Made by a program: the position numbers and the translations under genes. 64,000 nt of DNA from positions 3,038,001-3,102,000 of the forward strand of contig OZ020311.1 in assembly GCA_963971305.1 (NCBI GenBank). Reading direction: 5' to 3'. This document shows positions 27,801 to 50,415 of this stretch, one piece after another (position 1 is the first letter of the stretch; each line of letters starts with the position of its first letter). The notes under the pieces were generated by a model, which did no database searches, was not told where the DNA came from, and worked only from the letters and a program-made list of their open reading frames with translations. This DNA comes from Arcuatula senhousia. Taxonomy: Eukaryota; Mollusca; Bivalvia; Mytilida; Mytilidae.

Positions 27801-30800
27801 TTTTCAAGTAAGAATATTGTTGTTCATCGGCAGATCCAGGGGAAAATGTTTTTTCACAACAATTTACATGTAAAACTAACTAACCCCCTTAGCCATGCCG
27901 GCATGATAAACCCCCTGTAAGGGTAAGTCAATCTCAAAATTTTTCAATTTATTTTCTTATGTCGAAAATAATTCCAGATTCAAATAATAATTTGTTTAAT
28001 CATGATAATTTTTGCCAGTTTTAAGGGATGTGCACGCCCTCCATGCCCCCTCTAAATTGTCCTCCTGACATTAAATTTGTAACCATGCTAGAATTATAAT
28101 GCTTACCCCGTTGATGCCTAATTTGTTTGTTATTTACAGGTTTCCCTGAAGTATTATTGGACTCTAATGTACAAGAAAACCATAGAAAATTATGGCATTC
28201 TGAACCTTTTAAGAAGTTATTACACCAGACTCATTCTCTTTGTAAGTACAATATGCTAACATTACCAGTCTAGAAAACTATATTGTTTATTATTAAGTGA
28301 TAATTTTAGTTTTAAGGTGATGAATGTCTGCGGACAGATATGGGGAGGGGATAATTTTTTTAACAGTTTCCTCAACAACTACTTATCTGATAGGTCTGAG
28401 CCTCTTGATATTTGGTATGACCCATCAGCTTGGTGTCCCATATATGATTTCAGGGTTGCTGCTCACTAAGGGCTGTTCCAGAATTAATCGTGTGTGGTGG
28501 TTTCTATTTTAATTTCTATTACATATATGGTGGGTGGTGGGTGTTTTAGACATATTTTGTGAAGAAATAATGATAAAAATTGATTATTTTTTTATGGGTG
28601 GTGGGGTAAAGAAAAAAGTGCCTCACGACCCCCCCCCCCCCCCCCCCCCCACACACAAACACATTTAATTCTGGAACAGCCCTAACTTCCAATTTAATGA
28701 AATCTGGCCATTTTTGTCTTGAATCCATTTGATAATATATTTGTCTTTTTATAGTTTTTCAACAAACAAGAGGATTTAAAACGAGAAGATCAGGAGCCAC
28801 TGGTATTGGTAGTGCCAGACAAGAAGATACAGACCAAACCTTATTTACAGATTTTAAGGATGTAAGCATTGTCAAAACAAACAGGATTTGCAAAGTTTTT
28901 ATCCGATTTTTACTTCAAATTCTTTAAATACATAAAATAAAGCTGTAATTTATAATTGCTAGAGAAAATTGTACATTTCAAGTTAGTCAGATCTTAATAT
29001 TGCTTGTTGCTAATACACATAACATGCAGCTTTTTTGCAGTAAGGACACACAAGGTCAAATATACAAATTATCTCATTATTTCAAAGATTATTATTTCGA
29101 ATTATAATTATTACCCTTTCTTAGAATATTTTTATCAAATATTAGACATTTTTATTTAAATTGACAAGATTTTTGGCCAGATTTCACGGAGTGAAAAATC
29201 CGGGTTATAAAATGGTGAATGTCTGGCGGGGGGGCGGCGTGCGGGCGGGGAAAATATTTTCGTAACAGTTTTCTCAGCAACTACTAATCACAGCCACTTG
29301 ATATTTGGTATACAGCATCAGGGTGGGGTCCCATAATGTGGGATGCGATTTTAGGTTTGTCGCTCACCTACTTCCTGTTTAACGAAATCCGGCCATTTTT
29401 GACTTTGACAGATTTTTTTCAGGTTAGGGAACAAGTCCAGGATAAAATACTAGGAACAGGCAAACATGCTACTACAGATAAATTAAAGAAATTGTTAAAG
29501 GAAAACAGTAGCGACGAGATACAGAAAAAGATCAAAGTTGCCTTTGCAGAGGGTTACATTGCTAACGATGAAAAGAAAGGAACGACCAAGGCTGTATCAA
29601 CTTACCTCGTCAGAGCTTTGATGTTTTGTTTTTTTGCCTACGTTATCTTTAACTTTCTAATGTCATCAGGTACATAACAATCCAATTTAATTAATACTAT
29701 CAAAGTTAAATTCCTGAGCGTAGCAAAATTTATTGGCTGGAACTTTGTTGTCATTAGTATTTGAACACACGTGAAGGTTAGCACTGCTGGTGGAGTTTTA
29801 ATTCCCCGAGGTTAGCCCGCTCCGGCACCAACACTTTTGAGTTGGAGAAAACATCAAAGTTTTAAATTATCCGTCTAAATTTCAAAATTATATAAACCCA
29901 AAGGTTCTTCCTACCCCAGACATAGGTTGATTATCTTAGTTATAATTTGGTTTCCCAGTTTGGTATTTTTGGATTTTACTGTTATATGCTCTTCATATTC
30001 ATACAGTGTTTGGCATTTTCAATATTTTTGGTAGAGCGCCTCTGATGAGTCTTGAATAGACGAAATGCGCGTCAGGCGTAGCAAAATTTATTGTCTGGAA
30101 CTTTGTTGTCATTAGTATTTCTGGATTGGGAATAAAATAGCTACTTCTTGAGTCAGAAATTTGAATTTTATCATACCTTTATGTGTCATTGAAATCAAAG
30201 GGAATTTTCTTTTTACATGTAGTTCGGAATTAAATTTTGTGGTTTCCCTGGCCCCTGAAAATTGTAAATATATGAAAATTAATTGCAATAACTGTCAATG
30301 TACTTTTTTTTAGGGTACTTATTTTCACAATTTAACAATTTCAATCAAGTTAGCTGGTACTTTATTTCACGTTTTCAGTGTATTATTCTAATCATTTTCA
30401 TAGTAATATTTGCGGTTATTTAAATTTGCTATAAATGCCTGACGGTGAAATCCGTGAAAATAAATACCTTGCAAAAATATTAAAGTATGCTAACAGTAAA
30501 TGTATATCACAAGATATAGTACCTTCTCTTTGATTGGGTAATCAAAATCAAATGCTTACCATTAATAGAATTGATGCCCTGTATATTGCTGTATTTGGTA
30601 GAACACAGAAAAAATTACAACACACAAATTAATATCATAACTATAATACATGTAATATAAAAAAACTGACCTAAAATAGAGCTGAAATTTTCTGAAGTGC
30701 ATCCTTTGTCAGGGGCAAAATATACTAGATAAAAGAAGAAATTAAATGTGTTAATATGTCATAAATAAATTATATTTGTTATGGCAGGAGGGAAGAACAT

Positions 30801-33800
30801 TGGACTCAGTATCATTACAAAGGAACCTCACGAGGTCGCACCTGAAGATGTTCATGTCACTTTTGATGATGTGAAAGGGGTATGTATGTATGATTTGATA
30901 GTGTAGAAAATAATGAGATGTGGAATAAGTGTATGCAGCACAACTCGCATAACAAGTGGTAATTTAGTGAAAACCACATGGACAACTGCCAGCAGCCTTC
31001 AAGGAGGCCAGTGGGCGCTGCTCATTGTTCTGCATTTGGCCCATAGTCTAAATAAAATGCAGACTTGAGGAAAACAAGTGCCATGTGAAAATGAACTTTC
31101 AGATTTGCAGGATTTTGCTTACTGTTTCCAACATTTTGGATATGGATACTTTTCTTTTGAAATGTGGGGGTTTTGGCCTCCCAATGTTTTGATTTTAATG
31201 ATCCAGGTGAGATGTTACTTCTTGAAATAGTTGTATATTTCAAGCAAAACCAATATACCTACATTTAAATTTTAATAAGTTTGTTTTCAACTTTCACAAG
31301 GAAAAGAAATACATTTAAAAATGTTCAAAATGAGCATTCAGGTAGTTTTACATTTTACATGAGCAAGTATGTTCAAAAGTTTCACAAATTCTACCTATCT
31401 TCTCTAAAATTATGGCATGGGAATAATTTATAATTTGACAGGATGGTTCAATTAGACAAACTGTATTTCCTAAGCAAGGTCCTTGGATCTGTTGGATTCT
31501 CTCCTGTTTTGAGTGTGGGACATCATTGTCCCATGGACTCATTTCTCAATTATTTTTATGCCCCATCTACCAAAGTAGGGGGCATTATGTCTTTTGGACA
31601 TATTCTTGTTAAATATACAAAAAGATTTTCATGATAATATTACATTTCATGAACCAACTGTTAAGATATTTTATTCCTTTCATTAACAGATTGATACTGC
31701 CAAAGACGAACTTATGGAGGTTGTAGATTATTTAAAAGATCCAAAGAAATATACTTCATTAGGAGCCAAGCTGCCTAAAGGTTTGTTCAGTTTCAGACCA
31801 TTCTATAGTTTTTATAGGCCGAACAAATAGACTTCTAAGTTGATGGAGTCTATGCCACCACAAAAATGTCTTGCTAATTATTTACACTGCATGTTGTCCA
31901 ATTTTTATACCCCGCCACACGAAGTGGCAGGGTATTATGGTCTACCCACAGTTTTTTTTGGTATCTGTCCGTCCCCCGAGGTTTCCGACCAATTACTTAA
32001 AACGCGTCAAAGGATTTGAATGTTATTTTGCAAGTTCGATTTCCAGCATGATCCAAAAAACAGTTTGAAAAATCAAATTTCATGAAATTTTGAGTTTCCA
32101 ACTGATAACATGAAAATGTGTCAAGGGATTCAAATGACATTTTGTACAGCTATTGAGTATAATAAAATACAGGTCAAGTTTGATTTCCAGCATGATCTGA
32201 AAAACAGTTTTCCAGATAGGCCACTTTGAAAAATCAAATTTCATGAAATTTTGAGTTTCCGACTGATAACTTGAAAACACATCAAGGGATTTTAATGATA
32301 TTTTGCACAGCTGTTTATTACAATTAAATACAGTTCAAGATCAATTTCCAGCATGATTTGAAAAATAGTTTTTGAGATTGGCCACTTTGAAAAAATCAAA
32401 TTTTATTATGGAGACTTTTGTAGAGCTAAATGAGCTGAACATTTAAGCAAGCAACAGCTTTTCTCTATCTGCAAAAGTTTTCATTCTACAGGCCAAAAAC
32501 ACTATAACTTTTGATATCATATTGTGGCGGGGTATCATTTAATGTCACATTACATGCCCTATTTTTGTATTGTATATTCATGGAGACGACAATCAATAAG
32601 TTGGTTAAACTAAATGTCCAATCAATTTGCTTTATTTGCAATAGAATATTAATAAACCAACTAAAAAAGACTACAACAATATTCTTTCGTATTTAATACA
32701 ACAATAAAATTAAATAAAAACCCAAACCAACCAGTATTTCAACCATCTTGACAATATCAATTGTCATTCACACTTAAAGTCATTGTTGTCAGGAATGATT
32801 TTAAAAGCTTCATGTATTCAACACATATGGCATGTATCAACCTCTGTTTACGCCTTCTCCCACAACTATACGATTGGAATAAAAAAGTCTACTAGTAATC
32901 TAAATTCATCCATATAAATGTCCCATAAACACTTATCACACATGTTTGTTTGTTTCAGGAGTGTTGTTGGTTGGACCACCAGGTATTGGGAAGACTCTGT
33001 TAGCGAGGGCTGTGGCAGGTTTGTTCTTACATCAATGTCCATCTTGTGGTCTCCTTAGGCGAGCAGCATAAAAGAGATTTCAGCACAACTTTCTCTGAAA
33101 CTTTGTTTAATAAACCTAGGACAATTCTTTCTTACATGTATTGTGAACAAGATTATTCTTGAAATGGCGTTTTGCCTGATTCATTTGTCCGTCCATTTGT
33201 TAATCTCTCTACAAGGCAAAGTTAATTAAATTTGTAACTTTAGAAATAATAAAAGATAAAGCTTTCAAACTCATAACAGCAAACAGCTTAGTGGCTACAT
33301 TCATACTGAAGATGTGTTACTACATGTACATGTATTATAGAAGAATTTGAAAAAAAAATTGAAGATTTGCTTGTTAAGCTTAAGAATTCAAATACAGTGG
33401 CACAGATCCAGAAATATAGATAGTCTAATGATTATGAGTTTCATTTTAGGAGAAGCTGGTGTTCCCTTCTTCCAATGTTCTGGATCAGAGTTTGATGAAA
33501 TGTTTGTTGGTCTGGGAGCAAAGAGAGTAAGAGACCTATTTAGTAAGTTTTGACTGTCTGTTAAGTCACTGAAAAAAAAATAAAGCTAAAAATTCAAAGG
33601 GCCTTGGTTTGATTTAAACACAATTCAATAAGAAAATGATTGGATAGCAGGCCAAGGCCTATACATATCCTCTCCCCAAGAGGTCCTTGGGAACTGGGAT
33701 GGTTACAATGGCAATACTTCTTACTTTTTATAGGTAATTCAATAAAATTGTGAGGTCACAGATATAAAAAAAAAACTTGAAAAATAGCTATACCTTTCTC

Positions 33801-36800
33801 ATAATCCTGATTTATGAGGTTGTCACTACACTTGCAATGTGGTGTGAAAACCAGTTAGTTTGTGCTTATATTGAGATGATTGTTAAAGCTGTGAATGCAT
33901 AAACCATGTACATGTATTTTATTCCATGTAAGCTTTTTAATTGAAAGAAAAATTTCTGTGGTCTTATTTGAAATTTAAAACTTTATTTCTGTAGAGAAAG
34001 CCAAGTTACGAGGGTCCTGTGTGATATTTATAGACGAGATAGACAGTGTAGGGGCCAGTAGAACCAGTTCAGAGCTCCACCCATATGCCAATCAAACCAT
34101 CAATCAACTGTTAGCAGAAATGGATGGGTAAGACATTTTAAACTAGTATTATATACACATATAGTACTAGGGTAAGACAAAATAGACCGAAATATTAGCT
34201 TTTAAAGGATATCTCAATGTTTGAGTCATGTTAACAATAGTTATCATGGTCACAAATTGATGCCACTCAAACCACCAATCAACTGTTGGCAGAATAAGAT
34301 GGGTATGACTAAATGATGACTTTAATTATAACTTAGGGAAGGGAAGGGGGTTGTGTTAAACAGCATCAAATCATCATTCAACAGTTTAGTGAAATTGGTT
34401 AGATTTAATGGTAGACTGCATTTATAGATAAACTAATGAAGTCTTAAGGTTGAGTGAAGTGGAACATAACAAGTGTTACGGTCACACATATGCCAAACAA
34501 AAAACAGCAAAGTGTCATGATCTTATTACCAATCACATCATCAACCAAGCATTAAGTGCTATTCTCTGTAAGAATCAGGCAATGAGTGAATCATGATTTT
34601 AAAAACACAAGTTTGACTTCAAAATACTGTTCAAAATGCTTAAATAGTATCAAAAAATGCATTGATTTTTGAGATATATTTTGGTTGAAATGCATACAAA
34701 ATTTGATCTAAGGGAGATAACTTGTATCAAGTCATACTAAATCCCTAACATTGTAACATAATTTTTTTTCCCATCCTCTGACACTGGAGATGACAACTTA
34801 TGATTGTTATGATTATGATTACCATGCGTTGTCAAAACATCATGATTCAAACATTTTCGATTTTGCCTGATTTTTACAGAGAACTGCACTTAATAGCTAA
34901 GACTTAATACTGTGATATTACTTAAAAGGGGGGGGGCTTTCTGTTTTTCATTAAATCACAGACAACACACGTCTTCCTAAGTATGAATAGGGAAAGAAGT
35001 ATCTTTAGGTATCTGTTTAAAAAGTACTGTGGTGTAGAGTTATTAAGAATTAAAACTCTTCTTGTTAACACAGAAATTGTATAATTTAAACCACACACAT
35101 TATTCCTTTTGTCTTGATTTTCAGGTTTTCACAGAATGATAATATTATAGTTCTTGGTGCTACAAACAGAGTGGACCAACTTGACAAGTATGTTTACAAC
35201 TAATTAAAACATGCAAATGTAAAGAAAATAATAACCTCCTGCAATTTGTAGTATTCAAAATGACAACACAATACCATTTTGGAATAAGCAAGGTATAGCA
35301 AAACAATCTAATGTTATGAACTAGAAAAATATTAATGTCATTAGAACAGTTTAGTACAGCTATTTAAAATAACAACAGCCTGCTTTTAGCTATGCATGCT
35401 ATGTATGCTATGTATTGCAATATAACAAACATATTTACAATACAACACAATGCTCATATTGACAAATGCTAGCATTTAGAATTAAAAGATTGTTTAATAA
35501 TTTATATTTAGGCAATCAAAGAAGCTTAAAAAAACTTTCAAATTGTTAAAGGTCTTTTTTTCATGTAAACAGACTTTCAATTGCTTTTGTATTCATAGGG
35601 CTTTGCGGAGAAAGGGGAGATTTGATGTAGAAGTAAGAGTTCGACCTCCAGATCTTAAAGGAAGAATGGAGATATTAGAATTGTATCTTGGTAAAGTCAG
35701 AGCTAGTCCAGGTATGTTTACAAAAAGACATATGGAGTAAATAAATACGCATTAAACAACATCACATTATAAACATTAATACAAAACAAAGCTATCCCCA
35801 GCATATTGCAAGTTGGGTCCGCAGGTAACATTGACCATTAATAACATTATAAATATACAAAATGATATCAAGCAAAGAAACAGTTCTTAATTTCATCAGA
35901 AATCACTGGAAAAACTGCATAAAACAAATATACAAATGAAGAAATATTAGATAATTATGCTTTATACAAAATGACATTAATATATACATTGTAGATATTG
36001 AAATAAAACAAATAAAAGAAATTAACCAGATTAACATTCTGATAAACCCATGTACATGTATTAATCTTTATTAAACTGTCCTTTAGGCCAAAACAAAATA
36101 TATGTTTGTTTCCTGCTTCTTACTCTTGAAAATTAGGGTAGGTAGGTAGGATTTTTTTTTTTACAAAATTATTTTACATTGAGTCAATGGGAAAGCAATC
36201 CCAACTTTAAAGGTGCTTGTTCCAAAATACCAATAAAAACTTAAGGGTAGGGTTAAAACAAATAGGGAAGGTAGGGGACCAGGAAACAGACTTTTTTTTT
36301 GGCCTTAAACAAAAATTGGGAACCTGAGTTGCTGAGTGGTCTAAGGTGCTGGTTTTAGTACCACACTATTGATCACCAGTCAATTACAACTACAGGTTGT
36401 TTAATCGATTCCCAGTCTGTAATTTCACAAAAATGGGACTATCCACCTGTAAGTAATTACAATGTAAGTTTGTCAGTGAGCCACCCAAGGTCAGTGGTTT
36501 CCTCTGTGTATTCTGGTTTCCTTCATCATTTGAACTGACTGCACCATATGGCTCAGGTGCGTCAGAGAGGGTGTTAAACACCAACACACACACACACACA
36601 CACACACATCTTTTGACATTTTTACTTTCAGATATAAATCTTGAAGGCTTGGCGAAAGGAACCATAGGTTTTACTGGAGCAGACTTGTCCAATCTTGTCA
36701 ACACTGCTGCCCTGAAGGCTGCCATGGACAATGATAGTGTGGTTACAGAGAAGAATCTGTACTGGGCCAGGGATAAAGTCCTCATGGGTAAGATTGATGT

Positions 36801-39800
36801 TACTAGGGTGAGGGGGGGGGTCTGATTTATCCAATCTTGATAACACAGCCGCCCTGAAGGGATGTGGACAATGATAGTGTTGTCAAAGAGAAGAATCTTT
36901 ACTGGGCCAGGGATAAAGTCCTCATGGGTAAGATTGATGTTACTAGGGAGAGGGGGGGTCTGATTTATCTGATCTTGTCAACACAGCCGCCCTGAAGGCT
37001 GCAATGGACAATGATAGTGTGGTGTCAGAGAAAAATCTTTACTGGGCCAGGGATAAAGTCCTCATGGGTAAGATTGCTGTTACTAAGGAGAGGGGGGGTC
37101 TGATTTATCTAATCTTGTCTACACAGCCGCCCTGAAGGCTGCCATGGACAATGATAGTGTTGTCACAGAGAAAAATCTTTACTGGGCCAGGGATAAAGTC
37201 CTCATGGGTAAGATTGCTGTTACTAAGGAGAGGGGGGGTCTGATTTATCTAATCTTGTCTACACAGCCGCCCTGAAGGCTGCCATGGACAATGATAGTGT
37301 TGTCACAGAGAAAAATCTTTACTGGGCCAGGGATAAAGTCCTCATGGGTAAGATTGCTGTTACTAAGGAGAGGGGGGGTCTGATTTATCTAATCTTGTCT
37401 ACACAGCCGCCCTGAAGGCTGCCATGGACAATGATAGTGTTGTCACAGAGAAGAATCTGTACTGGGCCAGGGATAAAGTCCTCATGGGTAAGATTGCTGT
37501 TACTAAGGAGAGGGGGGGTCTGATTTATCTAATCTTGTCTACACAGCCGCCCTGAAGGCTGCCATGGACAATGATAGTGTTGTCACAGAGAAGAATCTGT
37601 ACTGGGCCAGGGATAAAGTACTCATGGGTAAGATTGCTGTTACTAAGGAGAGGGGGGGTCTGATTTATCTAATCTTGTCAACACAGCCGCCCTGAAGGCT
37701 GCCATGGACAATGATAGTGTTGTCACAGAGAAGAATCTGTACTGGGCCAGGGATAAAGTCCTCATGGGTAAGATTGCTGTTACTAGGGAGAGGGGGGTCT
37801 GATTTATCTAATCTTGTCTACACAGCCGCCCTGAAGGCTGCCATGGACAATGATAGTGTTGTCACAGAGAAGAATCTTTACTGGGCCAGGGATAAAGTCC
37901 TCATGGGTAAGACTGCTGTTACTAGGGAGAGGGGGGTCTGATTTATCTAATCTTGTCTACACAGCCGCCCTGAAGGCTGCCATGGACAATGATAGTGTTG
38001 TCACAGAGAAGAATCTTTACTGGGCCAGGGATAAAGTCCTCATGGGTAAGATTGCTGTTACTAAGGAGAGGGGGGGTCTGATTTATCTAATCTTGTCAAC
38101 ACAGCCGCCCTGAAGGCTGCCATGGACAATGATAGTGTTGTCACAGAGAAGAATCTTTACTGGGCCAGGGATAAAGTCCTCATGGGTAAGACTGTTGTTA
38201 CTAGGGAGAGGGGGGTCTGATTTATCTAATTTTGTAAACACAGCCGCCCTGAAGGCTGCCATGGACAATGATAGTGTTGTCACAGAGAAGAATCTGTACT
38301 GGGCCAGGGATAAAGTCCTCATGGGTAAGATTGTTGGTACTAGGGAGAGGGGGGGGGTCTGATTTATCTAATCTTGTAAACACAGCCGCCCTGAAAGCTG
38401 CCATGGACAATGATAGTGTGGTCACAGAGAAAAATCTTTACTGGGCCAGGGATAAAGTCCTCATGGGTAAGACTGCTGTTACTAGGGAGATGGGGGGTCT
38501 GATATATCTAATCCTGATAACACAGCTGCCCTGAAGGCTGCCATGGACAATGATAGTGTGGTGACAGAGAAGAATCTTTACTGGGCCAGGGATAAAGTCC
38601 TCATGGGTAAGATTGCTGTTACTGGGGAGAGGGGGGGGGGGTCTGATTTATCTAATCTTGATAACACAGCTGCCCTGAAGGCTGCCATGGACAATGATAG
38701 TGTGGTGACAGAGAAGAATCTTTACTGGGCCAGGGATAAAGTCTTCATGGGTAAGATTGCTGTTACTGGGGAGAGGGGGGGGTCTGATTTATCTTATCTT
38801 GTTAACACAGCTGCCCTGAAGGCTGCCATGGACAATGATAGTGTGGTGACAGAGAAAAATCTTTACTGGGCCAGGGATAAAGTCCTCATGGGTAAGATTG
38901 ATGTTACTAGGGAGAGGGGGGCCAGGGATAAAGTCCTCATGGGTAAGATTGATGTTACTAGGGAGAGGGGGGCCAGGGATAAAGTCCTCATGGGTAAGAT
39001 TGATGTTACTAGGGAGAGGGGGGTCTGATTTATCTGATCTTGTCAACACAGCTGCCCTGAAGGCTGCCATGGACAATGATAGTGTTGTCACAGAGAAGAA
39101 TCTTTACTGGGCCAGGGATAAAGTCCTCATGGGTAAGATTGATGTTACTAGGGAGAGGGGGGGTCTGATTTATCTGAGCTTGTCAACACAGCCGCCCTGA
39201 AGGCTGCCATGGACAATGATAGTGTTGTCACAGAGAAGAATCTTTACTGGGCCAGGGATAAAGTCCTCATGGGTAAGATTGCTGTTACTAGGGAGAGGGG
39301 GGACTGATTTATCCAATCTTGTAAACACACTCGCCCTGAAGGCTGCCATGGACAATGATAGTGTGGTGACAGAGAAAAATCTGTACTGGGCCAGGGATAA
39401 AGTCCTCATGGGTAAGATGGCTGTTACTAGGGAGAGGGGGGGTCTGATTTATCCAATCTTGTAAACACAGCCGCCCTGAAGGCTGCCATGTACAATGATA
39501 GTGTGGTGACAGAGAAAAATCTGTACTGGGCCAGGGATAAAGTCCTCATGGGTAAGATTGCTGTTACTAGGGAGAGGGGGGTCTGATTTATCTGATCTTG
39601 TCAACACAGCTGCCCTGAAGGCTGCCATGGACAATGATAGTGTTGTCACAGAGAAGAATCTGTACTGGGCCAGGGATAAAGTACTCATGGGTAAGATGGC
39701 TGTTACTAGGGAGAGGGGGTCTGATTTATCTAATCTTGTCTACACAGCCGCCCTGAAGGCTGCCATGGACAATGATAGTGTTGTCACAGAGAAAAATCTT

Positions 39801-42800
39801 TACTGGGCCAGGGATAAAGTCCTCATGGGTAAGATTGCTGTTACTAAGGAGAGGGGGGGTCTGATTTATCTAATCTTGTCTACACAGCCGCCCTGAAGGC
39901 TGCCATGGACAATGATAGTGTTGTCACAGAGAAAAATCTTTACTGGGCCAGGGATAAAGTCCTCATGGGTAAGATTGCTGTTACTAAGGAGAGGGGGGGT
40001 CTGATTTATCTAATCTTGTCTACACAGCCGCCCTGAAGGCTGCCATGGACAATGATAGTGTTGTCACAGAGAAGAATCTTTACTGGGCCAGGGATAAAGT
40101 CCTCATGGGTAAGACTGCTGTTACTAGGGAGAGGGGGGTCTGATTTATCTAATCTTGTCTACACAGCCGCCCTGAAGGCTGCCATGGACAATGATAGTGT
40201 TGTCACAGAGAAGAATCTTTACTGGGCCAGGGATAAAGTCCTCATGGGTAAGACTGTTGTTACTAGGGAGAGGGGGGTCTGATTTATCTAATTTTGTAAA
40301 CACAGCCGCCCTGAAGGCTGCCATGGACAATGATAGTGTTGTCACAGAGAAGAATCTGTACTGGGCCAGGGATAAAGTCCTCATGGGTAAGATTGTTGGT
40401 ACTAGGGAGAGGGGGGGGGGTCTGATTTATCTAATCTTGTAAACACAGCCGCCCTGAAAGCTGCCATGGACAATGATAGTGTGGTCACAGAGAAAAATCT
40501 TTACTGGGCCAGGGATAAAGTCCTCATGGGTAAGACTGCTGTTACTAGGGAGATGGGGGGTCTGATATATCTAATCCTGATAACACAGCTGCCCTGAAGG
40601 CTGCCATGGACAATGATAGTGTGGTGACAGAGAAGAATCTTTACTGGGCCAGGGATAAAGTCCTCATGGGTAAGATTGCTGTTACTGGGGAGAGGGGGGG
40701 GGGTCTGATTTATCTAATCTTGATAACACAGCTGCCCTGAAGGCTGCCATGGACAATGATAGTGTGGTGACAGAGAAGAATCTTTACTGGGCCAGGGATA
40801 AAGTCTTCATGGGTAAGATTGCTGTTACTGGGGAGAGGGGGGGGGTCTGATTTATCTTATCTTGTTAACACAGCTGCCCTGAAGGCTGCCATGGACAATG
40901 ATAGTGTGGTGACAGAGAAAAATCTTTACTGGGCCAGGGATAAAGTCCTCATGGGTAAGATTGATGTTACTAGGGAGAGGGGGGCCAGGGATAAAGTCCT
41001 CATGGGTAAGATTGATGTTACTAGGGAGAGGGGGGCCAGGGATAAAGTCCTCATGGGTAAGATTGATGTTACTAGGGAGAGGGGGGTCTGATTTATCTGA
41101 TCTTGTCAACACAGCTGCCCTGAAGGCTGCCATGGACAATGATAGTGTTGTCACAGAGAAGAATCTTTACTGGGCCAGGGATAAAGTCCTCATGGGTAAG
41201 ATTGATGTTACTAGGGAGAGGGGGGGTCTGATTTATCTGATCTTGTCAACACAGCCGCCCTGAAGGCTGCCATGGACAATGATAGTGTTGTCACAGAGAA
41301 GAATCTTTACTGGGCCAGGGATAAAGTCCTCATGGGTAAGATTGATGTTACTAAGGAGAGGGGGGGTCTGATTTATCTAATCTTGTCTACACAGCCGCCC
41401 TGAAGGCTGCCATGGACAATGATAGTGTTGTCACAGAGAAGAATCTTTACTGGGCCAGGGATAAAGTCCTCATGGGTAAGATTGCTGTTACTAGGGAGAG
41501 GGGGGACTGATTTATCCAATCTTGTAAACACACTCGCCCTGAAGGCTGCCATGGACAATGATAGTGTGGTGACAGAGAAAAATCTGTACTGGGCCAGGGA
41601 TAAAGTCCTCATGGGTAAGATGGCTGTTACTAGGGAGAGGGGGGGTCTGATTTATCCAATCTTGTAAACACAGCCGCCCTGAAGGCTGCCATGTACAATG
41701 ATAGTGTGGTGACAGAGAAAAATCTGTACTGGGCCAGGGATAAAGTCCTCATGGGTAAGATTGCTGTTACTAGGGAGAGGGGGGTCTGATTTATCTGATC
41801 TTGTCAACACAGCTGCCCTGAAGGCTGCCATGGACAATGATAGTGTTGTCACAGAGAAGAATCTGTACTGGGCCAGGGATAAAGTACTCATGGGTAAGAT
41901 TGATGTTACTAGGGAGAGGGGGGTCTGATTTATCTAATCTTGTCTACACAGCCGCCCTGAAGGCTGCCATGGACAATGATAGTGTTGTCACAGAGAAGAA
42001 TCTGTACTGGGCCAGGGATAAAGTCCTCATGGGTAAGACTGCTGTTACTAGGGAGAGGGGGGTCTGATTTATCTAATCTTGTCTACACAGCCGCCCTGAA
42101 GGCTGCCATGGACAACGATAGTGTTGTCACAGAGAAAAATCTTTACTGGGCCAGGGATAAAGTCCTCATGGGTAAGATTGCTGTTACTAGGGAGAGGGGG
42201 GGTCTGATTTATCAAATCTTGTCAACACAGCCGCCCTGAAGGCTGCCATGGACAATGATAGTGTTGTCACAGAGAAGAATCTTTACTGGGCCAGGGATAA
42301 AGTCCTCATGGGTAAGACTGTTGTTACTAGGGAGAGGGGGGTCTGATTTATCTAATTTTGTAAACACAGCCGCCCTGAAGGCTGCCATGGACAATGATAG
42401 TGTTGTCACAGAGAAGAATCTGTACTGGGCCAGGGATAAAGTCCTCATGGGTAAGATTGATGTTACTAGGGAGAGGGGGGTCTGATTTATCTAATCTTGT
42501 CTACACAGCTGCCCTGAAGGCTGCCATGGACAATGATAGTGTGGTGACAGAGAAGAATCTTTACTGGGCCAGGGATAAAGTCTTCATGGGTAAGATTGCT
42601 GTTACTGGGGAGAGGGGGGGGGTCTGATTTATCTTATCTTGTTAACACAGCTGCCCTGAAGGCTGCCATGGACAATGATAGTGTGGTGACAGAGAAAAAT
42701 CTTTACTGGGCCAGGGATAAAGTCCTCATGGGTAAGATTGATGTTACTAGGGAGAGGGGGGCCAGGGATAAAGTCCTCATGGGTAAGATTGATGTTACTA

Positions 42801-45800
42801 GGGAGAGGGGGGCCAGGGATAAAGTCCTCATGGGTAAGATTGATGTTACTAGGGAGAGGGGGGTCTGATTTATCTGATCTTGTCAACACAGCTGCCCTGA
42901 AGGCTGCCATGGACAATGATAGTGTTGTCACAGAGAAGAATCTTTACTGGGCCAGGGATAAAGTCCTCATGGGTAAGATTGATGTTACTAGGGAGAGGGG
43001 GGGTCTGATTTATCTGATCTTGTCAACACAGCCGCCCTGAAGGCTGCCATGGACAATGATAGTGTTGTCACAGAGAAGAATCTTTACTGGGCCAGGGATA
43101 AAGTCCTCATGGGTAAGATTGATGTTACTAAGGAGAGGGGGGGTCTGATTTATCTAATCTTGTCTACACAGCCGCCCTGAAGGCTGCCATGGACAATGAT
43201 AGTGTTGTCACAGAGAAGAATCTTTACTGGGCCAGGGATAAAGTCCTCATGGGTAAGATTGCTGTTACTAGGGAGAGGGGGGACTGATTTATCCAATCTT
43301 GTAAACACACTCGCCCTGAAGGCTGCCATGGACAATGATAGTGTGGTGACAGAGAAAAATCTGTACTGGGCCAGGGATAAAGTCCTCATGGGTAAGATGG
43401 CTGTTACTAGGGAGAGGGGGGGTCTGATTTATCCAATCTTGTAAACACAGCCGCCCTGAAGGCTGCCATGTACAATGATAGTGTGGTGACAGAGAAAAAT
43501 CTGTACTGGGCCAGGGATAAAGTCCTCATGGGTAAGATTGCTGTTACTAGGGAGAGGGGGGTCTGATTTATCTGATCTTGTCAACACAGCTGCCCTGAAG
43601 GCTGCCATGGACAATGATAGTGTTGTCACAGAGAAGAATCTGTACTGGGCCAGGGATAAAGTACTCATGGGTAAGATTGATGTTACTAGGGAGAGGGGGG
43701 TCTGATTTATCTAATCTTGTCTACACAGCCGCCCTGAAGGCTGCCATGGACAATGATAGTGTTGTCACAGAGAAGAATCTGTACTGGGCCAGGGATAAAG
43801 TCCTCATGGGTAAGACTGCTGTTACTAGGGAGAGGGGGGTCTGATTTATCTAATCTTGTCTACACAGCCGCCCTGAAGGCTGCCATGGACAACGATAGTG
43901 TTGTCACAGAGAAAAATCTTTACTGGGCCAGGGATAAAGTCCTCATGGGTAAGATTGCTGTTACTAGGGAGAGGGGGGGTCTGATTTATCAAATCTTGTC
44001 AACACAGCCGCCCTGAAGGCTGCCATGGACAATGATAGTGTTGTCACAGAGAAGAATCTTTACTGGGCCAGGGATAAAGTCCTCATGGGTAAGACTGTTG
44101 TTACTAGGGAGAGGGGGGTCTGATTTATCTAATTTTGTAAACACAGCCGCCCTGAAGGCTGCCATGGACAATGATAGTGTTGTCACAGAGAAGAATCTGT
44201 ACTGGGCCAGGGATAAAGTCCTCATGGGTAAGATTGATGTTACTAGGGAGAGGGGGGTCTGATTTATCTAATCTTGTCTACACAGCTGCCCTGAAGGCTG
44301 CCATGGACAATGATAGTGTGGTCACAGAGAAGAATCTTTACTGGGCCAGGGATAAAGTCCTCATGGGTAAGATTGCTGTTACTAAGGAGAGGGGGGGTCT
44401 GATTTATCTAATCTTGTCAACACAGCTGCCCTGAAGGCTGCCATGGACAATGATAGTGTTGTCACAGAGAAGAATCTTTACTGGGCCAGGGATAAAGTCC
44501 TCATGGGTAAGATTGCTGTTACTAGTGAAAGAGGGGGTCTGATTTATCTAATCTTGTTGACCGAACCTCCCTCATAGCTCCTTGGGATAATGCTAGTGTA
44601 TACAAAGAGAAAAGTCTTTAATGGGCCAGAGATAAATTTTGATGCCCATATCAGTTCAATCTGCAGGAAAGCTTCACAGCAACTAAATGTTTTAAAACAT
44701 TTGAGTTCTCTTTTGGGCAGACTTAGTAAGCTAACTATCTTTCACACTTTTATTCTAAGTAACTTTAACGTTTGCCCTTTGGTGTGGCACTTCTGTACAG
44801 AAAAAAATTCTAAAAAACTAGAAAAAGTGCAGGAAAGAGCACTTCGTTTTGTTAAGGATGATTATCATAGAAGAAAATGAGATGTGGAATAAGTGTATGC
44901 GACACAACCTACTATCATAGGGTATCATAGTACTTATGATACCCTTCTTCAAAAAGCTGAGGTGCCTTCCCTGCAGATTAGACGGATACGGACTATGGCT
45001 CTTGAAACCTTCAAAATTGTGAATAGAATTTCTCCTATATGCCTACAAAATTTAGTTAATGTGAAAAACTCTAAATATGTTTTTAGATACACAAAAGTTT
45101 TAGAAGTGGCTCATGTTAAATCAACTACCTATGGGAAAAAATCTTTTAAATTTGCTGCTGCCACTCTATGGAACAGCCTTCCAAATCATTTTAGAACTGA
45201 AAATAGTTTTTCGCACTTTAAAAGTCTCATTCAGTCCTGAAACGGTGTTGATTGTCGGTGTCCTGTATGCAGATAGATTTTTAAATACCTTAAATCCCGA
45301 TTGGAGTTCACTGCCAATGAATTTAATAGATTTTTAATTTTTTTTAATTTTAATTTCATTATATCTTTCCTGACATATTTTTACTGTCTTGTAAAGTTTT
45401 GTGTAGTAATTCCAAATTTTTAACCGTCCTATTAACGTTATGTGGGTTTTTCTTCAATTTTCCCTAGGCACTTTCTATAAATTATGTCTCTTGCATGATG
45501 TTTTTTAACTTTTGATTGTTTTTATTGTTAATGTATCTGTTTTATATATTCGGTTAAAAGCTCCTTAGAGCTTGTGTTGTATTGTTTTTATCATGCCGAA
45601 TCTAAATAAAGTTTTTCTTACTTACTTACTTAAAGTCATTTTTGGGTCAATGAAGCTTTAACTAGAGGCTGGATGGAGGGAAGGAGTCTGATTCATTCTT
45701 GCAAACAAAATGATAATGTAACAAAGAAAATACAATTTATACATCCTTCAAATAATTATGGCATGAATTAATTTTTTTTTAAAAAGGATTAATCTAAATA

Positions 45801-48800
45801 TAAGTTGAGAGTGACATCAAGGTGTTTCTTTTGATACCCTGTCACATAAAATGGCAAGTTATTAATGAAACCACACAAATTGTTTGTCTGTAACTTAAAA
45901 ACTCTTCAAGAGATTTGCATAAACATTTGCACAGCTGTTTCAGTACAACAAAATGACAATCTTGCCTGTTGTATATAATAATTTACTAAAACCCTTTTCT
46001 TCCAGGTCCTGAAAATAAGCAGAAGATTCCCATTGATAAGGTGAACTGGGTCACTGCTGTCCATGAAGCAGGCCATACAATAGTAGCTTACTATACTAAA
46101 GAAGCTGATGCTCTACATAAAGTCACAATAAGGGCAAGAGGTCAATCTCTAGGACATGTAAGTTGTTTATAGATTTAGAAACATGTAAGTTAAGGGACTT
46201 CCCCAACTGTATGTTATTAGTTTGTCAGTTACTTTCCTAAGATCGGTAATTTCCTCCGGGTACTCCAGTTTCCTCCACCATTAAAACGGCCCAGGTGCGT
46301 CAATAAAGGGCGCTAAACACCAACACGCACACACTCTGAAACAGTTTAGTAAGTTATAATTCAAGGTCCTACTAAACTTATAAAAATGTGCCCAGTACAC
46401 TTATCACATTAAATAAGACAAATATGAATAAGATGGTACACATGTCTACAGGTTATATAAAAACATGGACTACGAGGATCTTTTTTCCAAACAAAATTAG
46501 ATTGTGACAAAATGTTCCAAATTTCCATTGTTAACATGGTTTTCTGTATTTTACAAAGAGACTTTTCATATTAAAAGCAAAATTTACAGAAATTCATACA
46601 TTTGTCAAAAATGAATGGAAGAAAATGAGATGTGGAATAAGTGTATACAACCTACAATATAAACGGGTATCTTTATAAGTGAATCATTAGATTTCATTTG
46701 ATTATACACATCATCAAGGACCAATTAATTAACTGTAGTCGTGATCTTGCCCTACTTGACAACAGAATTTCATTTGGTTTTTGTTTTTACAGACATCATT
46801 TATCCCTGAAGATGAGATGTACAATGAGACAAAGGCCCAGCTAATGGCCAGGATGGATGTTAGTATGGGTGGTCGAGTTGCTGAAGAAGTTGTTCTGGGT
46901 GCTGACCAAATAACCACTGGTGAGACAACAGATGAAAAATCAATTGAAAATAGCAAGCCACAAAAAATAGAAAAAAATGAAATCAGAATTAATTGTACAT
47001 TGCACAGCATCCATAAAATAACCACAATTTAAAACTGCTTGCATCATTCAAGCAACACAACATCCACCTAGTAAGACTATATTCAAATGTCTTTCCCTTA
47101 AAAGAGAGGTAAATTTGAATTGTTATGACAGCTGTGTTATGCTGAAGTAGTTATAGTTAATAGTTGTGTTCCTATTTTGTGTTATGCTGAAGAGTAAGTT
47201 GTGTCTCTATTTCACCTGTTTCCCTCTAGAAAGATAAACAAGTGTACAGTTTTAATTCTGGTTCATCAACAAGAAACATTTGGGATGTTTCTGTCATATT
47301 GGACTTTCTAAAGTCAATGTAAAGTGTTGTATAAGGGTTCCTGGTGATCGCACACTAACCGGTTGTCAGAAGTACAGTAAAACAATTTACGTTGTGTAAT
47401 TGTAACATATACCCCCCCCTTCCCAAAAAAAAACCCAAACCACAAAGCACCTTAATACAGAGTATAACAAGATGTGGAATAATGAACGTGACACTACATC
47501 CATCATCCATTATACATCAGGCGTTGACAATTGAAATCATTCAGCAGTTTTCATTAGACATTTGGATAAGATGTAAATAAAGGACATAACAAAATAACTG
47601 AACTTGGAGTATCAATGTCAAAGAGAAAACACAAACCTGAAAAATTATAGATCGCAATGGTCCTGACTTGGTACAGGCAAATGAAATGAAACATTGGACA
47701 ATGATAATGTAACAGAAGGTTGAAAATATGAGATAGAATACAGCCAGCATCTCTCAGTATACAACCATGAAATTGTCTTTAAACCATGTGTGTGTGTTAA
47801 TGGCTGTTCCATTTAAATTGACGAAAAGGGGGGGGGCACACTTTGTTCAAGACCCCCCTCACCAATATAAAAAAAAAATCATTACACATCCTCAAAAAAA
47901 GATAATTTAACCCCCCACCAACAGAAAAAATAAAAAACTGCATCCCCCCAGTCCCACGTCAATTTAAATCACATATCAATATTTCAGGTGCTTCCAGTGA
48001 TTTCCAAGGGGCTACCTCTATAGCTTCAGCGATGGTGAAAAGATTGGGAATGTCTGAAAAGGTCAGCTTCACAAGGAAAAAATATTTTAAAAGGAATTTT
48101 GAAAAATACTATTGGATCATATAGTGTTTGAGTTATGATTATCTGTCTGTCTGTCTCAAATTAGTTTTTACCTTCAGGTTATAGTTACTTTACAATGTTG
48201 CAAGGTCTTTAATACAAGACAGCTGAGTGACTGGTAGCCTCTTGTAATGTTGTTGACTATCAGGAAGAACCAGTAGACAAGACAAACATAAGTGCCACTT
48301 TTGTTTTAATTGACAAATCACATGTTTTAAGACTTTCTTGTGGTTAAAATATCGTGCTATTGACCCAATAAGTCTTTCACCAATGCAGTTGAGAGTTCTA
48401 TTCCTGTTTCCTTATTTATAATGACTTTCACACCTGTTTGTAATTAGTTAGTTGGTAGCCTGCTCTTTTTTTTCCAGCAGGTATTGAGATATCTTCAACT
48501 ATTGAAACTGACTGCCCTATATATGACCCACCACTTGCCTTTAAATAGGTGAAAATCACTACTATGGATTCATTATTTTCATGGAAACCAGTTTTCGAGG
48601 ATTGATGAAAAGTGTCTGTTTGGCTGGTTCTTAAATTTGTGGTTCTGAAGTCTACAGTAAATAAAGCAATGTTGAATATCCTTTTCATATTAAACCAAAT
48701 TCCCTCACTTACCCATGACAATTGATACTGAACCAAAAAAAAATGAATCACAGCAAGTTATGATGGCAAGAGATGAACTATTGTTCTGACTTATACAACA

Positions 48801-50415
48801 TATATACCAAGACATGTATGGCTGGCTTGTTGTAACTTTGCATATTGTCTTTTACAGACTGGAGTTCAAGTTTTTAGATCTAACTTTGTCTTTTTCAGAT
48901 TGGAGTGAGAGTTTTTGGAGCTGACAACCAGGATTCGGGTCTTGGAATTATTAAAGTGAACAATGACAGTGAAACTATTAAACATGAGATAGATCTTGAA
49001 ATTAAAACGATGTTACAGGTGAGAACAAAATAGGAAACAGTGATGCAAATTACCCTCAATTATTAGGGAAGAAGTATAGTTTTCATTTTGTTCTGATCCA
49101 TCAACAATTGTTTTGTTAACACAGGGTTGCCACACATCCTTGAAACCTGGAAAAATCCTTGAATTTCATTTGTCAGTTCAAGGTCCTGGAAAAATCCTTG
49201 AATTTTTAAAGAATGAAAATATCCTTGGAATTTGCTAGTACCACAATCAAAGGTTCATGATTGAAATGTTTCACAAAAAATTTCATCAGTGACTGAAATT
49301 TTGTTTACTATCATCATTTTTGAAAATGACTTAAATATCATTGAAAAGTCCTGGTAAAACCCTTGAATTTTGCAACAACAAAATAGTGGCAACCCTGTTA
49401 ACACTAAATCACCACAATAAAAAGGAGTACTGAACTACTGATCTTAAATTATACCCAATCATTTTAAAATAGAAGATAATCAGTTGTGGTAAAAGTGTAC
49501 GCAACACAACCTACAAACCTACAATATAAACAACAATTAAAAAAAATCCACATTGGAAAAGTTCTATGCATGGAATTGCATAAGCATCTGTAAAAAAAAA
49601 ATGGAAATTATTTTCATCTCTGCACCCTTCTGCTGATTACATTGACCCTGTCAGAAATGGGCAAATGTTTGGCATATTATCAAAAATGATTTGGTTTGAT
49701 GATGTGATTAACAAAAAGATTGGTAATTAGCACACAAAAAAAGAAAGGATTTAGATTGTTAGATATCAAATTGTATACCTCATAAATGACATTGAAAACC
49801 TCAAACAATACTAAACAAGTTGTTTTTTGAATGTCGAGCAGGAAACAAATTTTCATAACAGTTTTTTCAGCATTATTTTTTACAGCCTTTTGATATTTGG
49901 TATGCAGAGTCGGCATGGGATTTGATTTAAAGCCTGTCACTTATCTACTTTATCTATCAAAGCTGATGTTTGTTTTCGTCGAATTTGTGTTATTTGTTTT
50001 TTGTCAAGAAGAGGGTCTTTCATTGACACTTTAGGATTGGGCTTGATTCATATGTAGTTTATTTTCAATCCAGGGCCAACAGCAAAACAGCAAGCATTGA
50101 CCCCTGGTCACATTGAAGGCTCATTGCTGTTTTCTGATGTGGATTTTTAAAATTTTTGTTAATATTGTACGGTATGTCACGTACACACATTCCACATCAA
50201 ATTATCTTCTATTTCTGGTTAATGAATCCTGCCATTTTTGACTGACAGATTTTATTTATCTATTGCAGGAATCCTATGACAGAGCAAAGAAGATAATTAC
50301 CCAACATTCTAAACAACATATTGAACTTGCTAAAATGTTGATGAAATATGAAACTTTGAGCAAGGAAGACATAAACACTATATTACAGGGCAAAAAATTA
50401 AATAGAAAAATATGA
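18827..50415 (+). CDS. YME1L1: YME1L-type i-AAA protease, mitochondrial inner membrane, 19 coding exons
   Basis: Exons: 18827-18859, 26659-26916, 27271-27409, 28140-28241, 28755-28861, 29423-29669, 30788-30879, 31690-31780, 32959-33018, 33450-33542, 33995-34127, 35125-35187, 35599-35711, 36632-36787, 46006-46157, 46793-46919, 47988-48061, 48899-49018, 50269-50415. All phases agree, giving 768 aa, close to human YME1L1 (773). YME1L is an ATP-driven zinc metalloprotease that faces the intermembrane space and processes or degrades inner-membrane proteins. Seen: SAETFFENK and TRGFKT in the N-terminal region, one membrane span at about 274-292, Walker A GPPGIGKT (362-369), Walker B VIFIDE (417-422), GRFD arginine region (479-482), HEAGH zinc site (582-586), and TTGASSD with the third ligand Asp about 660. 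Odd: I in place of T in Walker A, the exon 14 array, and a possible shorter exon 2 ending at 26820 (GTAAAT donor, same phase). Confidence 0.93.
19821..23387. repeat. 1.44 kb tandem duplication, 2.5 copies, in YME1L intron 1
   Basis: The unit starting AGGAAGTAAGACACAGTTCGG begins at 19821, 21257 and 22694 (periods 1436 and 1437). Copies 1 and 2 are full length. Copy 3 breaks off at 23387 after TTTACTACC. Copies differ by only scattered bases and small indels, so the event is recent. Each full copy contains the same two short ORFs on opposite strands (for example 20398-20583 and 20606-20890). These look non-coding by composition and match no family I know. Confidence 0.9.
23900..25800 (+). pseudogene. 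LINE ORF2 C-terminal remnant, split by a transposon insertion
   Basis: Upstream of 24027 the frame ends in [16 protein letters not shown]. After 25453 it resumes as [18 protein letters not shown], then after a frameshift near 25570 as [17 protein letters not shown] and GRYKNI. The last resembles the region just before the zinc-binding end of non-LTR retrotransposon ORF2 proteins. Stops and a frameshift make it dead. It lies in YME1L intron 1. Confidence 0.6.
24027..25452. mobile_element. 1.43 kb non-autonomous DNA transposon with CAGGG ends
   Basis: Begins CAGGGGCTGCTCTGG and ends CCCAGCGCGATCCCTG, imperfect inverted repeats starting CAGGG. CTAATC occurs immediately on both sides (24021-24026, 25453-25458), a 6 bp target duplication. 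TCGCCAGAAAAATCGCCAG is present near both ends. Removing the element plus one CTAATC rejoins the LINE reading frame. No transposase frame inside; the interior is AT-rich. hAT-like ends, but the expected duplication would be 8 bp. Confidence 0.65.
28315..28480 (+). repeat. Dispersed repeat with TTGATATTTGGTATG core, intron 4
   Basis: Contains AACAGTTTCCTCAACAACTAC and GATATTTGGTATGACCCATCAG. Related copies are at 29200-29422, 49855-49960 and 25860-25960. A C-run of about 24 bases follows at 28630-28652, and a GAAATCTGGCCATTTTTG tail at 28695-28715. Confidence 0.6.
29200..29422 (+). repeat. Dispersed repeat ending at the YME1L exon 6 acceptor
   Basis: Starts with a G-rich stretch (GGCGGGGGGGCGG), then AACAGTTTTCTCAGCAACTAC and TTGATATTTGGTATACAGC. 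It runs through GAAATCCGGCCATTTTTGAC to the exon 6 acceptor at 29422. Confidence 0.6.
29990..30110 (-). repeat. Dispersed mussel repeat, inverted copy
   Basis: Reverse-orientation copy of the sequence at 8617-8722 (CATATTCATACAGTGTTTGG through GACGAAATGCGCGTCAGGCG). Lies in intron 6. Confidence 0.65.
31907..32535. mobile_element. MITE-like element with ATACCCCGCCAC ends, intron 8
   Basis: ATACCCCGCCAC (31907-31918) and GTGGCGGGGTAT (32524-32535) are perfect inverted ends. The interior is about three tandem units of about 115 bp with AATCAAATTTCATGAAATTT and CATGATCTGAAAAACAG. Its last part shares GAGCTGAACATTTAAGCAAG with the 10945-12180 repeat. Non-coding. Confidence 0.7.
34258..34565 (+). 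repeat. Degenerate copies of the exon 11 3' end in intron 11
   Basis: Exon 11 ends with ATCAAACCATCAATCAACTG then TTAGCAGAAATGGATGG and its donor. A clear decayed copy is at about 34261-34310 (ACTCAAACCACCAATCAACT, then GTTGGCAGAATAAGATGGGT). Weaker ones are near 34362-34400 (CATCAAATCATCATTCAACA), 34482-34510 (CACATATGCCAAACAAA) and 34528-34565. Frames are broken, so these are relics, not exons. Confidence 0.6.
36086..36310. repeat. Imperfect inverted-end repeat (AGGCCAAAA family)
   Basis: Ends read TAGGCCAAAAC...GTTTCCTG and CAGGAAACAGAC...GGCCTTAAAC, imperfect inverted copies about 220 bp apart. Probably a small MITE. It abuts the SINE that precedes exon 14. Confidence 0.45.
36320..36608 (+). 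mobile_element. tRNA-derived SINE with (CA)n tail, 23 bp before exon 14
   Basis: An A-box-like TTGCTGAGTGGTCTAAGG near 36340 (as in tRNA-Leu/Ser) and a B-box-like AATCGATTCCC near 36403 head the element. The body includes TATGGCTCAGGTGCGTCAG, and the tail is (CA)n at about 36582-36608. A 5'-truncated relative lies at 46225-46335. The exon 14 acceptor follows at 36631. Confidence 0.6.
36632..36787 (+). CDS. YME1L1: YME1L exon 14, original of the amplified cassette
   Basis: Encodes residues about 511-563, the end of the AAA module and its helical lid: [20 protein letters not shown], then the acidic NDSVVTEKN helix start, ending VLMG across the donor. It begins after ...TTTTACTTTCAG and ends ATGG/GTAAGA in phase 1. 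The 3' 107 bp plus the first about 33 bp of the intron form the unit repeated downstream. In the exon itself the position that becomes an AG acceptor in the copies reads AACACTGCT. Confidence 0.92.
36821..44635 (+). repeat. Tandem array of about 53 extra copies of exon 14 3' part plus donor (about 139 bp units)
   Basis: Each unit carries TCTGATTTATCTAATCTTGT, AACACAG, then 81 bp equivalent to codons 536-562 of YME1L, the donor ATGG/GTAAGA, and a spacer GTTACTAGGGAGAGG with a run of 5-10 G. Unit starts step by 138-142 bp; length variation is mostly in the G-run. The 81 bp block is stop-free in the YME1L frame in essentially all units. The first extra unit (near 36850) has a 2 bp deletion, three units (near 39325, 41530, 43310) have CACACTCGCC in place of the AG, and the last (44570-44635) is strongly diverged. 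Blocks repeat at a higher order (1777 bp between 40.8-42.6 and 42.6-44.4 kb). It lies entirely within intron 14. Confidence 0.95.
38870..39028 (+). repeat. 51 bp sub-repeat triplication inside array units (also 40933-41091, 42710-42868)
   Basis: The segment from GCCAGGGATAAAGTCCTCAT through GGTAAGATTGATGTTACTAG and the G-run occurs three times in a row with a 51 bp period (for example 38921 and 38972). The period is a multiple of three, and each repeat has its own GTAAGA donor. It occurs once in each higher-order block. Confidence 0.9.
44636..45627 (+). pseudogene. 3' end of a CR1/jockey-like LINE, interrupted by a 60 bp insertion
   Basis: Encodes the C-terminal part of a non-[24 protein letters not shown], then [11 protein letters not shown] and [12 protein letters not shown]. 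After an insertion at 44871-44930 come [19 protein letters not shown] and [12 protein letters not shown]. The 3' UTR ends with a polyadenylation-like AATAAAG and a CTTACTTACTTA tail, as in CR1-like elements. It is joined directly to the last diverged array unit. Confidence 0.75.
44871..44930 (+). mobile_element. Short mobile sequence (GATGTGGAATAAGTGT family) inserted in the LINE
   Basis: TATCATAG occurs at 44863-44870 and 44923-44930 (and again at 44913-44920). The 60 bp between breaks the LINE frame with a TGA; removing it restores [11 protein letters not shown]. Related sequences lie near 26310, 26882, 30910, 46622, 47468, 49475 and 53237, and in reverse near 50175-50215 and 54800-54840. 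Confidence 0.6.
46006..46157 (+). CDS. YME1L1: YME1L exon 15 with the HEAGH zinc-binding site
   Basis: Starts GTCCTGAA after TTCTTCCAG in phase 1, so it joins exon 14, or any array mini-exon, as G-PENKQ. Encodes [19 protein letters not shown] (His582, Glu583, His586 of the M41 peptidase) and RGQSLGH. The catalytic residues are intact, so the protease should be active if expressed. Confidence 0.92.
46225..46335 (+). repeat. 5'-truncated SINE copy, intron 15
   Basis: Contains CCTCCACCATTAAAACGGCC, CAGGTGCGTCAA and a CACACACTC tail, matching the 3' part of the SINE at 36320-36608. Confidence 0.55.
48858..48898 (+). repeat. 41 bp tandem duplicate of the exon 18 acceptor and start
   Basis: Just before exon 18, CTTTTACAG/ACTGGAGTTCAAGTTTTTAG mirrors the real CTTTTTCAG/ATTGGAGTGAGAGTTTTTGG. 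Use of the upstream AG would add 41 nt and shift the frame, so the downstream AG at 48897-48898 is taken as the functional one. Confidence 0.75.
49855..50268 (+). repeat. Dispersed repeat copy leading to the exon 19 acceptor
   Basis: Includes TTGATATTTGGTATGCAGAG (about 49888), a reverse copy of the short mobile family (CACACATTCCACATC near 50186), and TTAATGAATCCTGCCATTTT with TGACTGACAG just before the exon 19 acceptor. Confidence 0.5.

Follow-up and report, generated by a model that had tools for sequence, protein, structure and literature searches.

A tandem array of some fifty frame-neutral partial-exon copies, with mostly protein-silent variation, in a YME1L gene of the mussel Arcuatula senhousia

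One intron of the gene for the mitochondrial i-AAA protease YME1L in the mussel Arcuatula senhousia is filled with copies of the end of the preceding exon, each with its own splice donor, which raises the question of whether these copies are used in the protein or are a tandem repeat that splicing skips. The gene lies in a stretch of 64,000 nucleotides (positions 3,038,001 to 3,102,000 of contig OZ020311.1, assembly GCA_963971305.1), hereafter called the window, to which all coordinates refer. A preliminary description of the array had offered two readings: the copies could be a reservoir of alternative exons, or else form a minisatellite that is tolerated since it is left out in splicing. What the present analysis adds is a codon signature in the variation among the copies, which is mostly silent at the protein level. 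This pattern suggests real past or present use in the protein and favours the reservoir over pure neutrality. We think it rather probable that the copies are, or were for most of the array's life, spliced into the mRNA as alternative cassette exons and translated.

The gene, the parent exon and the array comprise the following features:

29423..50415, forward strand: YME1L (i-AAA protease) gene, 14 exons, hand-modelled
36632..36787, forward strand: lid exon (exon 14 of the preliminary description), ending ATG/G in phase 1; parent of the array
36849..36927, forward strand: unit 1, with a 79-nt block that is 2 nt short, frameshifted and contains stops
36987..44506, forward strand: units 2-53, 52 mini-exons of 81 nt with G/GTAAGA ends, 49 with AG and 3 without
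38892..39051, forward strand: first 160-nt spacer, with two extra 51-bp copies of the exon end and donor (51-bp period in Tandem Repeats Finder, TRF)
40955-41114 and 42732-42891: the other 160-nt spacers, with two extra 51-bp pieces each
40732..42508, forward strand: higher-order block of units 28-39, 1,777 bp, 100% identical to units 40-51 (42509-44285)
46006..46157, forward strand: exon after the array, with the HEAGH protease motif, entered in phase 1

The anchor GCCCTGAA followed by G or A occurs 54 times. Copy 0 is the lid exon itself, which leaves 53 extra copies, as many as first proposed, of the lid exon's final 81 nt plus donor, spanning 36849-44506. The 81-nt block is present in 52/53 copies and AG is kept in 50/53; 49/53 combine AG, 81 nt and freedom from stops and are thus splice-ready and frame-neutral, which bears out the earlier statement that nearly every copy has this structure. 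On the donor side, TGG/GTAAGA closes the block in all 53 copies. On the acceptor side the literal AACACAG is found in only 32/53 of them, with TACACAG in 18 and ACACAC in three (units 18, 33 and 45, at 39331, 41534 and 43311), which have in common the lost AG. The lid exon ends ATG/G, the mini-exons run from CC to ATGG and the next exon starts with GTCCT; the phase-1 arithmetic of the preliminary description is therefore right, and the frame is maintained for any number of 81-nt copies. If all were included, 1,323 (49 x 27) or 1,404 (52 x 27) residues would be added, in agreement with the 1,400 or so estimated before.

The units are mostly 138-144 bp long, and the spacers that precede them measure 57-63 nt in 50/53 cases and 160 nt in three. 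TRF scores for the array exceed 3,000, far beyond chance. A DNA search with a 140-base unit against the 1.036-Gb, 1,803-contig assembly, in which very common words were skipped and only the best candidates scored, yielded 60 matches, all inside the array. The array as assembled is real. Its exact copy number is uncertain because the two 1,777-bp stretches are 100% identical, an identity that hints at a recent change in copy number.

To describe the variation, we gave every distinct variant a single count, which keeps higher-order duplication from inflating the numbers; the mini-exon set consists of the 52 copies of 81 nt, unit 1 being excluded, and the upstream set of the 27 nt preceding the block in 53 copies. 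Of 13 mini-exon variants, nine are silent and four change the protein, for an expected silent fraction of 0.21-0.26 (P 2e-4 to 1.6e-3). The four changing variants occur in 1-3 copies each, and one of them sits in the three copies with a dead acceptor. The upstream 27 nt harbour four silent and nine changing variants, which fits an absence of constraint. Sorted by site, variability affects 4/54 codon positions 1+2, 9/27 third positions, 11/28 upstream sites and 10/26 sites at the start of the intron. Positions 1+2 thus vary less than the adjacent intronic sites taken together (21/54; P 1.7e-4) and less than position 3 (P 0.0075), which does not differ from the intron (P 0.81). The intronic rate predicts 11.6 silent and 32.2 changing variants; the 9 and 4 observed place changing variants approximately eight-fold below expectation and silent ones near it. 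The ratio of non-synonymous to synonymous differences (pN/pS, Nei-Gojobori) is 0.043 for the mini-exons (15 haplotypes) and 0.49 upstream of the AG (13 haplotypes). The parent's exact 27 residues are encoded by 42/52 copies, with five peptides overall, and each 81-nt copy differs from the parent at 2-6 silent positions and by zero (42 copies) or one (10 copies) protein-changing difference. Variation in a neutral intronic minisatellite should be devoid of codon-position structure; here such structure is present, more weakly in subsets of the data. The mini-exons therefore look protein-constrained, and the constraint does not extend upstream of the AG, nor is it apparent in a decayed copy at the edge of the array. 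It would imply translation, probably of the copies as alternative cassette exons.

The likely origin of the unit can be read from its 5' part. The unit starts about 30 nt upstream of the mini-exon, in a stretch whose homologue in the lid exon is coding (GACTTGTCCAATCTTGTCAACACTG in the parent and GATTTATCTAATCTTGTCAACACAG in the array consensus). Upstream of the AG, parent and consensus show four silent codon differences and one amino-acid change, the latter at the duplication edge, which hints that this stretch was once coding, or that the parent took the changes. The difference between ACA in the copies and ACT in the parent is silent in the parent's frame and makes the AG. We propose that a partial tandem duplication took in the 3' end of the lid exon, its donor and about 30 nt of intron, that a change from ACT to ACA, if it went in that direction, created the AG and with it a frame-neutral cassette exon of 81 nt, and that the duplication grew to a 53-copy coding-exon array within the following intron. 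Each included copy would add 27 lid residues to the protease, with protein-changing mutations being removed in consequence. The predicted mini-exon junctions are ATGG joined to CCGCCCTGAAG and ATGG joined to CTGCCCTGAAG, and the corresponding junction peptide is VLM-AALK (VLMAALK).

Splice signals were scored with matrices trained on 13 introns (12 for donors), the acceptor matrix penalising C at +1. The donors of the array reach 8.0 bits, at the 97.7th percentile of GTs, and at 48/54 donors a frame read on past the donor reaches a stop within the first 11-23 codons of spacer. The branch-site-like word CTGAT is present in 53/53 copies, 23 nt before the end of the intron. A 59-nt spacer offers two candidate branch points, the A of CTGAT at 36 and the A of CTAAT at 45, 14 nt before the end. 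According to excerpts of PMC6692369, human splicing requires a donor-to-branch distance of about 50 nt, and short distances of this kind can enforce exclusive exons (PMC6692369 and PMC7969005, likewise in excerpts). By the human limit, which is maybe not that of the mussel, both candidates are too near the donor, making the joining of neighbours less likely. Since the distance between most neighbours is 57-63 nt, we favour the inclusion of one copy, or of a few that are not adjacent, over full inclusion. The earlier view that any number of copies could be included is thus right for the frame and less likely to hold for splicing, and constant full inclusion of all copies was judged unlikely from spacer length. 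We infer that inclusion would be rare or conditional, an mRNA receiving a single copy or a few non-neighbouring ones rather than a series, and that most mRNAs probably join the lid exon straight to the next exon. In a more specific and rather unlikely version, the array would act as a rheostat, with approximately 49 redundant cassette exons, mostly for the same peptide, competing for about one inclusion per transcript, so that copy number would set the frequency of the long form while the short spacers forbid the joining of neighbours.

Several points weigh against use of the copies in the protein. Only 13 variants underlie the statistics, and the direct comparison of silent and changing variants between mini-exons and upstream sequence gives P 0.058 (0.034 without the dead-acceptor variant). 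Variants present in <=4 copies comprise four silent and four changing ones, and for these the contrast of position 3 with positions 1+2 has a P value of 0.43, that of positions 1+2 with the intron still being P 0.018. When only states absent from the parent are counted, position 3 versus 1+2 gives P 0.076. The copy nearest the parent, unit 1, is frameshifted, three copies lack the AG, and the copy number rests on one assembly that holds the identical 1,777-bp blocks. The acceptors are weak, with a median of 0.2 bits that corresponds to the 81st percentile of background AGs and is below most real ones, the latter ranging from -0.4 to 13.0 bits in leave-one-out scoring. At 57-63 nt, the introns between copies would be far shorter than any other modelled intron of the gene, the smallest of which has 411 nt. 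Finally, the VLM-AALK junction is absent from all six proteins listed by two tandem-unit protein searches, which have ordinary single lids; in the protein database nothing exceeds 71% identity among 120 listed matches, so the species' own YME1L is probably not included.

Part of this evidence would be accommodated if the copies were skipped and untranslated, their silent pattern being borrowed through repeated exchange with the constrained parent exon as a hub. We consider this unlikely, although it is the alternative that deserves the most attention. Parent and array coincide in variable states at three block columns (1, 34 and 52, numbered from 0), the even split of the rare variants and the P value of 0.076 for parent-absent states would both fit, as would the weak acceptors, and the edge copies decay as they do in ordinary tandem repeats. 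Borrowing nevertheless leaves 2-6 silent differences between the parent and every one of the 52 copies, none of which has the T that the parent carries at block column 37 (from 0). Among parent-absent states, variability at positions 1+2 is still lower than at upstream sites (4/54 versus 11/28; P 7.6e-4), and tracts derived from the parent would presumably have brought contiguous intron along. Exchange with the parent could account for some of the silent states that the two have in common, yet it hardly explains why changing variants are so scarce beside a freely varying intron.

The remaining explanations appear much less probable. Were many copies included together, a long stalk of helical repeats would stand between the ATPase and protease rings of YME1L. 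Any number of 81-nt copies is frame-neutral and each unit duplicates part of a lid that matches Pfam AAA_lid_3, but the branch points at 36 and 45 of a 59-nt intron fall short of the human distance, the addition of some 1,300 residues at the end of the lid would be drastic, and no such protein was found among 7993 scored candidates with lengths of ~424-1349 residues; we regard this outcome as very improbable. We would give as little credence to a regulatory decoy, in which strong donors and weak acceptors tune expression while mis-inclusion or retention leads to stops and decay. The high donor scores, the early stops in the spacers and the frameshift that inclusion of unit 1 would cause are consistent with it; a decoy has no need of constraint at the protein level, and yet positions 1+2 vary less than the intron. 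Least probable of all is an assembly artefact that would have largely inflated the copy number from a few true units. The two adjacent 1,777-bp stretches, 100% identical, could point that way, but the 53 exon-plus-spacer segments that run from the parent to unit 52 fall into 30 distinct sequences, which a handful of true units would not yield. Use of the mini-exons as alternative cassette exons is the reading that we favour.

Among known systems, the array is best filed as a coding-exon variable number tandem repeat like KIV-2 of LPA. In both cases, many tandem exon-plus-intron units lie in one protein-coding gene and carry a synonymous and intronic signature, and KIV-2 units are routinely translated. 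The structure of this class, frame-neutral units with a complete exon and its splice sites, is found in 49/53 mussel units. Unlike KIV-2, the mussel units are short, derive from a partial exon with a newly made acceptor, belong to an AAA+ protease and are predicted to be used. Excerpts of the literature describe KIV-2 units of 5.6 kb, with 1-40 units per allele (PMC11462820), each unit containing two exons with long introns, and subtypes that differ by three synonymous and >100 intronic variants (PMC11201333). Mutually exclusive exon clusters of the Dscam, OGDH or tropomyosin type also consist of similar exons, and short introns can forbid neighbour joining in them. Known clusters of this type encode different alternatives that replace each other. 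The mussel copies mostly encode the same peptide (identical in 42/52) and would supplement the parent exon instead of taking its place, which sets them apart. The array also resembles cases of intron gain by tandem genomic duplication or internal tandem repeats, in which splice sites likewise lie inside a duplicated exon segment. Known cases of this kind involve one or few copies, in contrast with the 53 copies, higher-order repeats and codon-level signature of the mussel array. That duplicated exon segments can yield new introns through splice sites within the repeat is reported in PMC2812944 and PMC4974935. No description of a YME1L array of this kind was found in a literature search covering titles and the starts of abstracts.

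The assignment of the host gene is based on the motifs of the joined frame, on identity with a Mytilus trossulus protein and on the Pfam match of the lid exon. The hand-joined frame is open over 555 residues, with GT/AG at all 13 introns, and more N-terminal exons appear to lie upstream of 29423. By its motifs and the lid match, the frame combines an AAA module with Walker A and B motifs, the lid and an M41 protease domain with HExGH in one protein, as expected of a YME1L / i-AAA protease. The lid exon, ninth of the 14 modelled exons, matches AAA_lid_3 at 1.1e-11. The intron that bears the array is 9218 nt long, and the other modelled introns range from 411 to 1250 nt. The closest protein among 120 listed of 7994 matches is a YME1L1-like protein of M. 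trossulus (P0001), with 71% identity over 97%. These two proteins harbour LRRKGRFD in the arginine-finger region, where LxRPGRFD is usual; the sequence is found in none of six other homologues (P0002-P0005, P0009 and P0040). Walker A reads GPPGIGKT in the window's YME1L, P0001, P0003 and P0009, GPPGVGKT in P0002, P0004 and P0005, and GPPGTGKT in P0040. In P0121, a fragment of 106 residues from a 554-base contig, the lid exon seemingly starts at GADL, near the 5' edge of the repeat unit, possibly reflecting an intron or a partial duplication at the same point as the edge of the array unit. A second, decayed exon-end duplication is present in the gene: the YME1L exon at 33995-34127 has its 3' end and donor repeated in degenerate form just downstream, at 34201-34309, with a score of 76 for a maximum of 44 in 300 shuffles.

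The array has a decayed edge, beyond its last intact 81-nt block, which ends at 44506:

44540..44636, forward strand: decayed edge copy with indels and a stop (44540 being the start of the searched stretch)
45631..45707, forward strand: possible, weak continuation of the decayed copy (score 49, maximum of 300 shuffles 41)

Substitutions in the decayed copy number 4, 5 and 7 at codon positions 1, 2 and 3; six are silent and ten changing, including one stop, with no clear codon-position bias. The intervening segment, 44637-45630, is by eye a reverse-transcriptase-like 3' fragment of a retroelement, ends with CTTACTTACTTAC and appears to have been inserted into the decayed edge copy. Other repeats are present elsewhere in the window. 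At 20083-23090, a block of 1,436/1,437 bp occurs in two tandem copies (1431 matches, 5 mismatches and one gap position), with a partial third copy seemingly from 22956. A 174-bp tandem repeat is found at two distant places, 6683-7380 (4 copies) and 53765-54636 (5 copies), the first unit of one matching four units of the other at 163-165/174 bases. The open frames at 55001-55795 presumably belong to a Penelope-type reverse transcriptase, which they resemble, and an 868-residue open frame at 61397-64000, which continues past the end of the window, has by eye the look of a LINE (long interspersed nuclear element) reverse transcriptase.

Use of the mini-exons would mean that a mitochondrial protease with a housekeeping role has about fifty frame-neutral exons in reserve, whose acceptor arose from one silent change and whose copies are under selection, and a single locus would then allow the birth of exons and of introns, as well as the control of splicing by copy number, to be measured. 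If they are unused, the array would be a sharp test case for the way in which about fifty good donors are passed over during splicing, and for the way in which a tandem repeat can imitate selection.

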